A stretch of 64,000 nucleotides of DNA from Caldicellulosiruptor morganii (GTDB lineage: Bacteria; Bacillota; Thermoanaerobacteria; Caldicellulosiruptorales; Caldicellulosiruptoraceae), in NCBI RefSeq assembly GCF_026810225.1, contig NZ_CP113865.1, positions 1,756,001 to 1,820,000 on the forward strand, read 5' to 3'. Position 1 is the stretch's first letter. Each line of letters begins with the position of its first letter. The position numbers and the translations under genes are program-made. This document shows, one piece after another, positions 21,918 through 34,749 of this stretch. The notes under the pieces are model-generated. The model was not told the DNA's origin, ran no database searches, and saw nothing but the letters and a program-made list of their open reading frames with translations.

Positions 21918-21993
21918 AGGGGCGTAGCTCAATTGGTAGAGTAGCGGTCTCCAAAACCGTTGGCTGGGGGTTCGAGTCCCTCCGCCCCTGCCA
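21918..21993 (+). tRNA. tRNA-Trp (CCA)
   Basis: Acceptor AGGGGCG/CGCCCCT, anticodon loop CTCCAAA between GCGGT and ACCGT giving anticodon CCA, T-loop GTTCGAGTC, encoded CCA end. It marks the last chromosomal feature before the large accessory block and could be its attachment site; no second copy of its 3' end is seen in the window. Confidence 0.95.
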
Positions 21994-25997: not shown

Positions 25998-26279
25998 CTA
26001 TTGTGAACGTTGTTTATTGAGATAGTTGCCTGAAAATTGGTTGTAGAAATATCTTGAGAGTGGTATAATAATTTTGGGGGATGTTGGGAATTTATTTAAA
26101 AGCGCAGGCGTTGAACAGGAAGTGGTAAAGTAAAACTTTACCACTTCTTTTTTTATTTGAACCCTGAAGGGTTTTATACTTACGCTAATTCTGTAATTCG
26201 CTTTAGTCAGACAGATTGCAAGTACACTTACCGCAATCACTACACTGGCCAAAACAATTTTTATTACTTCGATACTCAA
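25998..26279 (-). CDS. small hydrophobic peptide, copy 1 (type I toxin-like), extended
   Basis: From a TTG start behind AGGGGTGA: MSIEVIKIVLASVVIAVSVL, then CLTKANYRISVSI, then KPFRVQIKKEVV. One membrane helix is followed by a basic amphipathic end. The 48-residue paralogues at 26805 and 28504 stop inside the downstream hairpin; this copy lacks that stop and reads on for another 45 residues. A plus-strand promoter faces its 3' end. A GTG at 26288 is an alternative start. Confidence 0.6.
   Translation of the reverse strand: MSIEVIKIVLASVVIAVSVLAICLTKANYRISVSIKPFRVQIKKEVVKFYFTTSCSTPALLNKFPTSPKIIIPLSRYFYNQFSGNYLNKQRSQ
26076..26155 (+). ncRNA. antisense RNA opposite hydrophobic peptide copy 1
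   Basis: A promoter TTGTAG-17-TATAAT (26041-26069) and a perfect intrinsic terminator GAAGTGGTAAAGT-aaa-ACTTTACCACTTC with eight Ts (26119-26154) define a transcript of about 80 nt. It contains GATGTTGGG and GCGCAGGC, found in all three modules, and overlaps the 3' end of the peptide mRNA. Confidence 0.65.
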
Positions 26280-26339
26280 CGATGTCACCCCTTTTGTTTT
26301 GCATGTTTGTTTCTCCCCAACATCCCCATATCTAAAAAA

Positions 26340-26400
26340 GGGGTGACTTGCCTGCGCTGTTTACTCAATTTGTGGTCTTACTCCCAAGGCAGGGGGCAAG
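26340..26400 (-). promoter_or_regulatory. GAGT leader of module 1
   Basis: Minus strand: GGCAGGG-acttgc-CCCCTGCC hairpin, GGGAGTAAGACC, GAGTAAACAGCGCAGG, then AAGTCACCCC and GGGATGTTGGGGA. Here the second GAGT leads into the module repeat instead of a start codon. Confidence 0.55.
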
Positions 26401-26414
26401 TCCCTGCCATAAAG

Positions 26415-26645
26415 CTACGCTGGTACATTTTCTTTTTTCTTTTCTCTTAACACCGCTCTTAACACATCTGTCACCATGACAAAAGTGCCTTCATCAACAA
26501 ATTCCCGTACTTGTTTCAGTGCATTTTTTACCAGCTCATCGTCGACTACTCTAATCACAGCTCCGTTTTTCTTTACACTGAGTCTAATCTTGCCGTTGAC
26601 AAAGGTTATAAGTACAACTTCCCCATTGTTAACAACTCTTATCAT
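26415..26645 (-). CDS. hypothetical protein (76 aa)
   Basis: MIRVVNNGEVVLITFVNGKI and further beta-rich sequence is followed by a helical, Lys/Glu-rich end. No family recognised. It has the most regular leader of the set: GGAGTTATACC, AAGAAAGGAGAGTTAAACC, ATG (26646-26695). Confidence 0.65.
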   Translation of the reverse strand: MIRVVNNGEVVLITFVNGKIRLSVKKNGAVIRVVDDELVKNALKQVREFVDEGTFVMVTDVLRAVLREKKKENVPA

Positions 26646-26695
26646 GGTTTAACTCTCCTTTCTTATTGGTATAACTCCGAGGCATTTGCCAGAAA
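26646..26695 (-). promoter_or_regulatory. GAGT leader of the 76-residue gene
   Basis: GGAGTTATACC and GAGAGTTAAACC are separated so that GAGT repeats with a 22-nt period across the ribosome site AAGAAAGGAG; the second copy abuts the ATG. Confidence 0.7.
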
Positions 26696-26735
26696 GTTTG
26701 TTGTTGAAATACTCTGAAAGTGGTATAATAATTTC

Positions 26736-26826
26736 AGGAGATGTTGGGAAAGGTAAAATGTTTATAGAAACGCAGGGCTTTAAAGCAAGGATGGTTAGGT
26801 TTCTTTACCTAACCATTTTCTTTTTT
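26736..26826 (+). ncRNA. antisense RNA opposite hydrophobic peptide copy 2
   Basis: Promoter TTGTTG-17-TATAAT (26701-26729) and terminator ATGGTTAGGT/ACCTAACCAT (26791-26816) with a T-rich tail. The RNA holds GATGTTGGGAAAGG and AACGCAGGGC. The terminator stem also contains the peptide's stop codon. Confidence 0.65.
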
Positions 26827-26951
26827 ATCTTGAGTCTAAATGGAAGTAGTTGCAGGGATACATAGATGTTTGCTTTAGTCAAACCAAAAACCACTACACC
26901 AGCAATAGTTATAATGGTTATAGCAGCTGTTTTAAGGAGTTCCTTGCCCAA
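26805..26951 (-). CDS. small hydrophobic peptide, copy 2 (type I toxin-like)
   Basis: From a TTG behind GGGGGTGA: MGKELLKTAAITIITIAGVV, then VFGLTKANIY, then LPFRLKIKKKMVR, 48 residues with one membrane helix and a basic end. It shares LTKAN and the FRxxIKK ending with copy 1 and the length of 48 with copy 3. The cassette is framed by inverted repeats, GATGTTGGGAAAGG on one side and CCTTTCCCCAACATC on the other. Confidence 0.7.
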   Translation of the reverse strand: MGKELLKTAAITIITIAGVVVFGLTKANIYVSLQLLPFRLKIKKKMVR

Positions 26952-26999
26952 AGCTGTCACCCCCTTACTTTGAAAATTCCTTTCCCCAACATCCCCATA

Positions 27000-27070
27000 T
27001 CTAAGGGGTGACTTGCCTGCGCTGTTGACTCACTAATTGGTGTAACTCAGAGGGAGAGGGAAAACCTCCC
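27000..27070 (-). promoter_or_regulatory. GAGT leader of module 2
   Basis: Minus strand: GGGAGG-tttt-CCCTCTCCC hairpin, TGAGTTACACC, TGAGTCAACAGCGCAGGC, then the module repeat. Confidence 0.55.
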
Positions 27071-27075
27071 CCATT

Positions 27076-28116
27076 TTATACACTTGCAGTTTCTACTTTG
27101 CTGAAATCAACAAGCATGTTGTAATTATTCTCTTTTGAAACTTTAGCTTTAATAACTGCATTTTTTTCAAGCTGGGTAGTTTTTTCGTTCGCTTCGGCAT
27201 ACAAGATTTTCTTTTCTGCATCGTCTGTGTAAGCAATAATTTTGAGATAATCTTTGCCGCTTTTGGATTTGATGATATTCACTTCTCTGATATACAGTGT
27301 TTGATACTCATCGCTTTGATTATCCTGAGAGATTGATACTTGAATGGTTTGTCTTGACTCTTCTGAGGGTTTAACTTCTTCTTGAGAGATTTGAACTTCT
27401 TCTGCCTGTTCAATTTCTTCTGGCTGGACAACTACAGCAGGTTTGTTTTCAACTTCTTTGAGTTCAGGTACTACTGCTGGCTGTACCTCTGGAGTTTCAT
27501 CAAGTTCTGCTCCCATCTCCTCTGCGCCGTACAGCCCTTGCAGTTCTTCCATGAACGCTTCCCTCAAAGCTTGTTCCAAAGCTACTTTTCTAATCATTGT
27601 AGCCGGCATCTGCTGCCAGCTTCTTATTATTTGCCCGTCTTTTCTTCTTCTGATATATTCCGAGAGATTTACCGTAACTTTTAAAGGTATCTGCCAGTCC
27701 TTACGAAAAACTTCTGCCCAGCCGCCTACAAGTTTTTCATCTGGTAAAACAAGTGTGCCTTGTCTTTCTTCAACAGTTCCATCATTATGCTGTATAATGA
27801 CGCCTGCTCTCCAGCCGTTGCAAAGTCCACTCTTTTGAGCTCTACGAATGAAAACGTCCTTGCTGACAACTAAACTTGCCGGTTCGTCACCAAATTTGAT
27901 TAAATAAACATCTCTTCTAAATGGGTTTAACTTCTGGGCTTCACAAAGCTTCATGAATAGAACAACTTCTTCGTCACTTACTTTTGTAGCATCACCGCTG
28001 ACGAGATATTGTTTGACTGTGTCAAACGTGAGTCTAATTTCTTTCCCGTCTTCTGAAGTGTAAACTACGCTTTCAATAATGCTGTCTGTTTCCTTTCTTG
28101 CAACAACACTCTTCAT
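27076..28116 (-). CDS. bet: RecT/Bet-family single-strand annealing protein
   Basis: The first 200 residues match phage recombination protein Bet: SDEEVVLFMKLCEAQKLNPF, RDVYLIKFGDEPASLVVSKD, FIRRAQKSG and MPATMIRKVALEQALREAF. Residues 210-270 are an acidic Glu/Val/Pro linker, and the last 75 look like an OB-type beta domain (YLKIIAYTDDAEKKILYAE), an unusual extension. With the Cas4-like nuclease it would form a recombination pair. Confidence 0.9.
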   Translation of the reverse strand: MKSVVARKETDSIIESVVYTSEDGKEIRLTFDTVKQYLVSGDATKVSDEEVVLFMKLCEAQKLNPFRRDVYLIKFGDEPASLVVSKDVFIRRAQKSGLCNGWRAGVIIQHNDGTVEERQGTLVLPDEKLVGGWAEVFRKDWQIPLKVTVNLSEYIRRRKDGQIIRSWQQMPATMIRKVALEQALREAFMEELQGLYGAEEMGAELDETPEVQPAVVPELKEVENKPAVVVQPEEIEQAEEVQISQEEVKPSEESRQTIQVSISQDNQSDEYQTLYIREVNIIKSKSGKDYLKIIAYTDDAEKKILYAEANEKTTQLEKNAVIKAKVSKENNYNMLVDFSKVETASV

Positions 28117-28188
28117 CGTTAGACTCCCCCTTTTTTATATTGGTTTTACTCACAGGCAGGGGAAAGAGAGAAAACCCTGCCAAAAAGC
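28117..28188 (-). promoter_or_regulatory. GAGT leader of the RecT/Bet gene
   Basis: Minus strand: GGCAGGG...CCCCTGCC hairpin, TGAGTAAAACC, AAAAAAGGGGGAGTCTAACG, ATG. The 3' arm of the hairpin (CCCCTGCC side with TTTCCCC) could instead pair with the ribosome site. Confidence 0.65.
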
Positions 28189-28190
28189 TA

Positions 28191-28382
28191 CTACTGGGCT
28201 GGAGAGTGTTGTTCCTGAGTGTTGTCTATGTCCTCATCCTTTGTTGTGGTGATTTCAATCGAAAAGCTTTTAAACTGCCATTTGATGTTACGCTTAAACA
28301 CTGCACAGAAAACTACAAGCAAGCTGAAGCCCAGTAGCAAAATAGCAAAAAGGTTGTTTAGGATAAATAACACGATTGACAT
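28191..28382 (-). CDS. small membrane protein (63 aa)
   Basis: MSIVLFILNNLFAILLLGFS and LLVVFCAVFK form one long membrane helix, followed by a charged, acidic tail ending QEQHSPAQ. AAGGTGAT precedes the ATG. It is in the operon between module 3 and the RecT gene; no family recognised. It is distinct from the three related peptides. Confidence 0.6.
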   Translation of the reverse strand: MSIVLFILNNLFAILLLGFSLLVVFCAVFKRNIKWQFKSFSIEITTTKDEDIDNTQEQHSPAQ

Positions 28383-28447
28383 TTAAATCACCTTCTTTCA
28401 AAATATTTGTTGTATCTAAAACTAATAAAATGTGGTATAATATTAAA

Positions 28448-28526
28448 GGTAGGGTGTGTTGGGGAGTTTATCGTAACGCAGGTCAATGGGTGAGAGGTGG
28501 TATCTATGATACTACCTCTTTTTTTA
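28448..28526 (+). ncRNA. antisense RNA opposite hydrophobic peptide copy 3
   Basis: A -10 TGTGGTATAAT (TATAAT 28436-28441) and terminator AGAGGTGGTA/TACTACCTCT (28493-28519) with seven further Ts bound a transcript of about 80 nt. It holds GGGTGTGTTGGGGAG and AACGCAGG. Confidence 0.6.
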
Positions 28527-28650
28527 TGTCTACTTGCAATTTTCCAATTTTGATGCTTACAGTGTAGCTTGCTTTGGTTAGTCCTATAATAAGTTCACCA
28601 ATAATTATTGCAGCAGCTATTACCACAATTTTTAAGTTCTCTGCACCCAC
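28504..28650 (-). CDS. small hydrophobic peptide, copy 3 (type I toxin-like)
   Basis: From a GTG behind GGGGGTGATATCA: MGAENLKIVVIAAAIIIGEL, then IIGLTKASYTV, then KLQVDIKKEVVS, 48 residues. It has the same membrane helix, LTKAS and IKKEVV ending as copy 1. Its flanking repeats read GGGTGTGTTGGGGAG and CTCCCCAACACACCC, differing from copies 1 and 2 in the same way on both sides. Confidence 0.7.
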   Translation of the reverse strand: MGAENLKIVVIAAAIIIGELIIGLTKASYTVSIKIGKLQVDIKKEVVS

Positions 28651-28699
28651 TGATATCACCCCCTTTCTTTTCCGTCGTTCTCCCCAACACACCCATGTT

Positions 28700-28780
28700 T
28701 AAAAAGGGGGTGACTTGCCTGCGTTGTTGACTCGCTTCTGAAGAGTATTACTCCAAAAGCAAGGGCAACAGCCCTTGCAT
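28700..28780 (-). promoter_or_regulatory. GAGT leader of module 3
   Basis: Minus strand: GCAAGGG-ctgtt-GCCCTTGC hairpin, TGGAGTAATACTC, GCGAGTCAACAACGCAGGC, then the module repeat. The hairpin overlaps the end of the 91-residue gene. Confidence 0.55.
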
Positions 28781-34162: not shown

Positions 34163-34501
34163 TTACAATCCCAGCAGAATCTTTATTTTCTCTTCCAGTT
34201 CTCTTAATTTTTCATTTGGAAGTTGACCTATCTTTTTGACAAGTCTTTCTTTTGAGATTGAGCGTATATCTTCAGGTTTTGCAAATGATACTTTTGCAAG
34301 TCCGCTGTTTTCGGGCTGTATTTCTACATGCAGCGGTATATTTTTGTTCTTGCTTGTGATTAGTACAACAACCACCAGCTCAGCAGCACATGAATTGAAT
34401 TCATCCACTGAGATTATTACTGCTGGACGAACACCGCTCTGTTCATGTCCTCTTGTTGGTTTTAAATCTACAAGCCATATTTCTCCTCTTTTGGCGTTCA
34501 T
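34163..34501 (-). CDS. mazF: MazF/PemK-family mRNA interferase toxin
   Basis: The 112-residue protein shows RGEIWLVDLKPTRGHEQSGVRPAVIIS, PLHVEIQPENSGLAKVSFAKPEDIRSISKERLVKKIG, the MazF fold with its conserved Arg (GVRP) and Ser/Thr. It cleaves mRNA at short motifs. It overlaps the antitoxin gene by four bases. Confidence 0.93.
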   Translation of the reverse strand: MNAKRGEIWLVDLKPTRGHEQSGVRPAVIISVDEFNSCAAELVVVVLITSKNKNIPLHVEIQPENSGLAKVSFAKPEDIRSISKERLVKKIGQLPNEKLRELEEKIKILLGL

Positions 34502-34749
34502 TGCTCAATCCCATCCTGCAATGTGTTTTCCCAAAGCTCCCTTTCCTCAATCTCCTCCTGCCAGAGCTTCTTGTTTTCTTTAAGAGCAGCAAAGGCTTCA
34601 GCAGTTTTAGAAAGCATGACTTTCCTTTTGTACTCTTTAAGAGCTTCCTGAATTATCTTTTGCATTGGTTGATTGAGCTCCGAAGCCAGTTTCTTTAAGC
34701 CTTCATACGTTTCAACATCTACTCTTACCGTTGTTGTTTTGTTTAGCAT
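34498..34749 (-). CDS. mazE: MazE-type antitoxin, ribbon-helix-helix
   Basis: The 83-residue protein has an RHH start (TTTVRVDVETYEGLKKLASELNQPMQKIIQEALKEY) and an acidic, flexible end that should bind MazF. It is first in the pair. Confidence 0.85.
   Translation of the reverse strand: MLNKTTTVRVDVETYEGLKKLASELNQPMQKIIQEALKEYKRKVMLSKTAEAFAALKENKKLWQEEIEERELWENTLQDGIEQ

Follow-up and report, generated by a model that had tools for sequence, protein, structure and literature searches.

What does a membrane peptide of 48 residues do when it is encoded three times within a few kilobases, each time facing the promoter of a short antisense RNA? The question is raised by a stretch of 64,000 nucleotides (nt) from Caldicellulosiruptor morganii (contig NZ_CP113865.1, positions 1,756,001 to 1,820,000; hereafter the window, in whose positions all features are given). 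We lean towards the view that each peptide gene, together with its leader, its tail and the opposing RNA (a module), works like a type I toxin-antitoxin system with overlapping 3' ends, by the mechanism proposed below. On our best reading of the sequences, both the peptide family and the RNA arrangement would be new, the closest known systems being yonT/SR6/yoyJ and bsrG/SR4.

Three paralogous genes for the peptide lie on the minus strand: copy 1 at 25998–26279, copy 2 at 26805–26951 (48 amino acids, aa) and copy 3 at 28504–28650 (48 aa). Their starts (TTG at 26279, TTG at 26951 and GTG at 28650) are each backed by a Shine-Dalgarno (SD) sequence at a spacing of 8 nt, and each 48-residue core (26136–26279 in copy 1) has one hydrophobic segment (maximum KD19 2.1–2.8) and a basic end, in agreement with an earlier description made from the DNA letters alone (the sequence-only reading). 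The consensus consists of a short N-terminus, one hydrophobic helix, K-A-N and then ...KPF.I.IKK(E/K)VV; an AlphaFold2 model places a helix at residues 3–26 and strands at 29–34 and 39–44 (mean pLDDT 73, pTM 0.39). Changes between close pairs fall mainly at third codon positions, and the rate of nonsynonymous change (dN) was below that of synonymous change (dS) in all comparisons. For six pairs the dN/dS values were 0.03/0.36, 0/0.07, 0.08/0.33, 0.06/0.41, 0.22/0.69 and 0.27/0.63, copy 1 against its relative G004a giving 0.032 and 0.357. The peptide is under coding constraint, that is, it is a small membrane peptide from a real gene. As read from the sequence, the codons for the invariant IKK and the following E-V-V lie opposite the T run and stem of the antisense terminator, and constraint on the RNA may account for some of their conservation. 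No family was matched by 14 members in Pfam, NCBIfam and PADLOC, by two of the window peptides in PHROGs, or in Rfam, in keeping with the earlier failure to recognise the peptide, and by these profile searches the family is new. In genus g4 of the same class (L074–L077), a 48-residue single-helix peptide (MDMQLTF...SIKKKN) resembles the family (E 0.0015), and no anti-Shine-Dalgarno (antiSD) element, leader-tail repeats or antisense promoter was found with it; L073 was a chance match.

Opposite each gene, on the plus strand, the sequence-only reading had placed a promoter, and the same nine-mer, TGGTATAAT, an extended -10 element, is indeed found at 26061–26069 (copy 1), 26721–26729 (copy 2) and 28433–28441 (copy 3). 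The window contains eight occurrences where 0.61 would be expected, a number that none of 100 shuffles reached. Plus-strand terminators, each followed by a T run, lie at 26117–26149, 26788–26819 and 28492–28520. The predicted antisense RNAs accordingly span 26076–26156 (about 80 nt), 26736–26827 and 28448–28525; at about 77–90 nt, they agree with the RNAs of about 80 nt that had been expected from these starts. In the predicted folds they form the terminator hairpin (z -4.2, -2.0 and -3.6), and their 5' halves are mostly weakly paired. The plan described in the sequence-only reading is not a chance pattern. The earlier statement that the stem holds the end of the peptide gene is confirmed; the stop codons of copies 2 and 3 lie inside it, and copy 1 has lost that stop. 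In copy 1, the loop of the terminator hairpin (26117–26149) is inverted relative to G004a, probably through a hairpin-templated inversion that removed the stop codon; with the stop codon of its relatives missing, the frame runs on through the tail to 25998 (93 aa from TTG 26279).

A search for such peptides beside such RNAs elsewhere, which had been proposed as a check, returned 20 modules of one architecture in nine genomes, eight of the same family plus Thermosediminibacter. The window's genome (2.475 Mb) carries three copies; modules occur in six other genomes of the genus, four copies are found in a sister genus, and one in Thermosediminibacter litoriperuensis. Five of the 12 genomes of the genus that were searched gave no significant match, a first scan of genome contigs with copy 3 as query gave none, and no relative was found in phage, plasmid and IMG/VR collections. 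A sample of 398 genomes from the phylum yielded these modules and no others. At the position of the antisense promoter, TATAAT is present in all 20 modules and TGGTATAAT in 19 of them.

The modules have a common order of elements in the peptide mRNA: A, antiSD, B, SD, the open reading frame (ORF), the terminator stem, A' and B', where A' and B' are tail sequences complementary to leader elements A and B. In copy 1 (all elements on the minus strand) these are A, AGCGCAGGC, at 26350–26358; the antiSD, GTCACCCC, at 26340–26347, assigned from an inverted repeat and folding; B, GGGGATGTTGGGGA, at 26314–26327; the SD, GGGGTGAC, at 26284–26291; A' at 26101–26109; and B' at 26077–26090. Copy 2 has A at 27016–27023, the antiSD at 27005–27012, B at 26983–26996, A' at 26769–26776 and B' at 26737–26750. 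Copy 3 has A at 28718–28725, the antiSD, GTCACCCCC, at 28706–28714, B, GGGTGTGTTGGGGAG, at 28680–28694 as an inverted repeat with the tail, A' at 28475–28482 and B' at 28452–28466. A leader reading frame beginning ATGGGG... was rejected as an upstream ORF, its frame not being conserved. The A and B helices cross in pseudoknot order, on either side of the antiSD.

Several lines of evidence show strong covariation between leader and tail. Ranking of the leader-tail helices puts B:B' first in 18 of 19 modules and A:A' within the top three in every one; in the Thermosediminibacter module B:B' scores 40, and A:A' was found by eye (CTTGCCAAGT/ACTTGGCAAG). Mean duplex energies of own pairs were -29.7 for B and -16.1 for A, against -21.5 and -11.2 when leaders and tails were swapped, and none of 20,000 permutations of the partners reached the observed means for either helix. 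When all 362,880 permutations of nine representatives were evaluated, the true pairing was the best for B and among the best two for A. The B variants GGGGATGTTGGGG, GGGTGTGTTGGGG, GGGCGTGTTAGTGG, GGGAACGTTAGAGG, GGATGTATTGGGG and GGGTGAACAGGGG each have their match in their own tail, and several helix columns show three or four Watson-Crick types. Exceptions to the pairing are G-U in 10 cases versus A-C in 3 (one-sided binomial about 0.05), which favours pairing in the peptide mRNA over pairing in a plus-strand transcript. Covariation is seen in the antiSD-SD helix too (CACCCC/GGGGTG, TCCCCCC/GGGGGGA, CACCTCC/GGAGGTG). In an antiSD-SD pattern scan of the 398 genomes, loop:tail helix scores of at least 35 were confined to the modules, all other matches scoring 31.5 or less.

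The antisense RNA is tied to the same elements. B begins 7–11 nt past TATAAT in all 20 modules, so placed that the predicted antisense start lies at B or a few nt before it. The predicted RNA therefore reads B, A, terminator (with its T run, in copy 1), its B and A being the same sequences as those of the mRNA leader, and it covers A', B' and the ORF end of the peptide mRNA. Since the 5' half of the antisense RNA is a copy of the leader, it can pair with whatever the leader pairs with in the tail. With a small membrane peptide, a 3'-overlapping antisense RNA, a mobile element and several paralogues, the plan is that of type I toxin-antitoxin systems in Gram-positive bacteria. The type I plan with overlapping 3' ends, which the sequence-only reading had put forward, is supported in part by a layout conserved in 20 modules, by the coding constraint and by covariation; the copying of the leader had been overlooked and it changes the likely mechanism. 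Also beyond that reading are the covarying A and B repeats themselves, the antiSD-SD hairpin and a second peptide gene downstream of copy 3.

Folding of the RNAs with ViennaRNA at 37 and 70 °C indicated how access to the SD might be controlled. In the leader without the tail, SD pairing is at least 0.90 in all 20 modules, mostly with the antiSD; the SD of copy 2 at 37 °C pairs with a different sequence. With the tail present, two nested folds compete, one containing A-A' and antiSD-SD and the other B-B' with a partly freed SD, such that B-B' partly displaces antiSD-SD in some modules. RNAfold considers nested structures and no pseudoknots, and A-A', B-B' and antiSD-SD could coexist in the real RNA.

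We favour a scheme in which pairing of leader and tail promotes translation, and the antisense RNA stands in its way by occupying the tail. The free peptide would inhibit growth, and the antisense RNA would be made constitutively. By pairing along its full length with the mRNA tail it should recruit RNase III, leading to decay of the long duplex; because its 5' half copies the leader, it would also rival the leader in binding A' and B', which would block the leader-tail pseudoknot and leave the SD locked by the antiSD. Once the antisense RNA is exhausted, through loss of the element or under stress, leader-tail pairing could form and help the ribosome to reach the SD, and the peptide would be made. 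That the antitoxin is in this sense a mimic of the toxin mRNA leader, outcompeting it for the tail and preventing an ORF-spanning pseudoknot needed for translation, we advance tentatively, as an idea whose chances fall somewhat short of even. If true, leader mimicry would be a regulatory principle for which we found no description in the type I literature searched.

Three observations weigh against the toxin-antitoxin reading. The stop codon is missing from copy 1 and a frameshift affects one relative, G010c, which means that damage is tolerated in some copies; related genomes hold intact versions of both. B-B' opens the SD in only some modules, and in the models B-B' and antiSD-SD might coexist. 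Finally, no promoter of its own is apparent for the peptide mRNA in most modules, unlike in classical type I toxins; in Caldicellulosiruptor the peptides appear from gene order to be transcribed with the replication and recombination operon of an integrative element.

The alternative that survives best, although we consider it unlikely, is that leader-tail pairing is a lock of the kind known from hok and aapA, in which 5'-3' pairing would keep the full-length mRNA inactive until processing at its 3' end released the leader for translation, with the antisense RNA clearing away processed or nascent mRNA. The combination of leader-tail pairing with an SD-sequestering element does resemble the long-distance interaction in aapA and hok (PMC6733600), and A-A' is compatible with antiSD-SD in the nested folds. 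The tail, however, pairs with A and B and not with the SD, and most modules run on into a downstream gene instead of ending at the tail. Moreover, the predicted leader hides its SD in every module even when the tail is absent, so trimming alone would not activate translation.

A less probable alternative, to which we give little credence, holds that the peptide and the second peptide, pep2, are ordinary proteins of the element (acting, for instance, in conjugation, lysis or membrane signalling) and that the antisense RNA merely tunes their amount without any toxin being involved. The setting of the genes lends this idea some weight. The window copies lie in an integrative element with genes for CHC2 primase, RadC, a PD-(D/E)XK nuclease, RecT, DUF5697, a tyrosine integrase, SSB and T2SSE/F-like proteins; the peptide genes sit within its replication and recombination operon, in most modules without an apparent promoter of their own. 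The gene pep2, encoding a second small membrane peptide, lies just downstream of copy 3 (28191–28382, minus strand), and a counterpart follows a module in eight of the nine genomes. These genes start 27–58 nt past the complement of the antisense -10 element (W3, G008b, G012a, G006b, G007a, G010b, G001 and G279); homology between the two peptides was rejected (hhalign probability 2.8%). On the other hand, it is difficult to see why a harmless protein should have three silencing layers (antiSD, leader-tail pairing and antisense RNA), and module sites differ among related elements, with copy number varying from 1 to 4. In these elements the modules occupy different gaps between the same genes, and some sites are empty or scarred. 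The element of G008, mostly 91–99% identical to that of the window in its proteins, carries the module of copy 3 and lacks an insertion where copy 1 lies in the window; its copy 2 site (L097 9536–9620) is a deletion scar that keeps A and the antiSD and has lost everything from B through the antisense -10 element. Such filled, empty and scarred sites suggest that modules are gained and lost as units.

Very improbable, finally, is a DNA artefact in which template switching at quasi-palindromes keeps the leader and tail repeats identical with no function in RNA: the loop inversion of copy 1 suggests that hairpin-templated changes do occur here, but the repeat order A B ... A' B' is not a simple palindrome, exceptions favour G-U over A-C (10:3), both repeats persist across the 20 modules, even in a distant family of the phylum, and the position of B is fixed relative to where antisense transcription is predicted to begin.

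Several further features were observed around the modules. A tRNA-Trp gene (21918–21993) lies at the element's left edge and is a possible integration site. On the minus strand between 23000 and 29100, a hairpin and a recurrent GAGTTAnACC-like motif, followed after about 20 nt by GGGGAGTTnAACC-ATG, stand in front of many operon genes; the corresponding gaps in other genomes of the genus hold AGTTTGCC repeats instead, and both may be RNA-processing or regulator sites. In L095 (G004), a zinc-ribbon-like protein of ~65 residues (MKCQNC...CADCGYEL) is encoded upstream of each of two modules, as if co-copied. In T. litoriperuensis (L102/L088) the module and its second peptide have, by eye, a promoter-like TATAAT and a terminator of their own; this standalone module adjoins an apparent transfer-messenger RNA gene, also identified by eye, with an IstB-like ATPase gene upstream. 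The same element of the window encodes, at 34163–34749, a MazF-like protein and a small ribbon-helix-helix-like partner, by eye a probable type II toxin-antitoxin system.

If the toxin-antitoxin reading is correct, the modules would add a family of such systems in thermophiles, on which our literature search found no paper. They would also provide a compact model for the control of a 5' ribosome site by an antisense RNA acting at the 3' end, which is known from bsrG/SR4. The separation of A, B, A' and B' and the existence of naturally matched variants make the mechanism open to direct test by compensatory swaps. In Caldicellulosiruptor, a module could serve for gene control or counter-selection.

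Among known systems, yonT/SR6/yoyJ of the SPbeta prophage of B. subtilis is similar in having a polycistronic mRNA with two small toxins on a mobile element, on which SR6 acts by decay (PMC5848175). Its layout, one mRNA for two small peptides with the antisense RNA lying across the end of the first peptide gene, recurs in eight of the 20 modules (in the window at copy 3 only), co-transcription being judged from the layout. SR6 covers the ribosome site of yoyJ, whereas the antisense RNA predicted here starts on the peptide-1 side of its own promoter, which leaves the SD of pep2 outside the transcript. YonT itself gave a best blastp E of 0.001 (27% over 37 aa, with a minimal database and composition correction off), which is not convincing homology. 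Of the leader-tail matches in yonT, the best (score 27.5) overlaps the promoter region of yonT; in the second-best, it is the SD itself and not flanking elements that takes part.

The modules resemble bsrG/SR4 and txpA/RatA in a 3'-overlapping antisense RNA, here predicted, and in a local hairpin that hides the SD, and binding of SR4 at the 3' end of bsrG alters the structure around the SD, closing it, and recruits RNase III (PMC6562991). They differ from both in their long covarying leader-tail helices, in the copying of the leader by the antisense RNA and in a peptide that no library family covers. With aapA/IsoA and hok/sok they have in common 5'-3' long-distance pairing in the toxin mRNA, recognised here by complementarity and covariation, and antiSD elements (PMC6733600). 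The tail here lacks an antiSD and is covered by the antisense RNA, and 3' trimming does not free the SD in the predicted folds. The toxin mRNAs of timP/TimR and tisB/IstR-1 depend for their translation on a pseudoknot, as is proposed here, and TimR, the antitoxin, disrupts that of timP (PMC11228461, PMC7708055). Those pseudoknots lie in the 5' region of the mRNA; in the modules the pseudoknot would connect the leader to the tail over the full length of the ORF, and the predicted antisense RNA is encoded in cis over the tail. The two halves of the favoured scheme each have a precedent, in SR4/bsrG and in TimR/timP.

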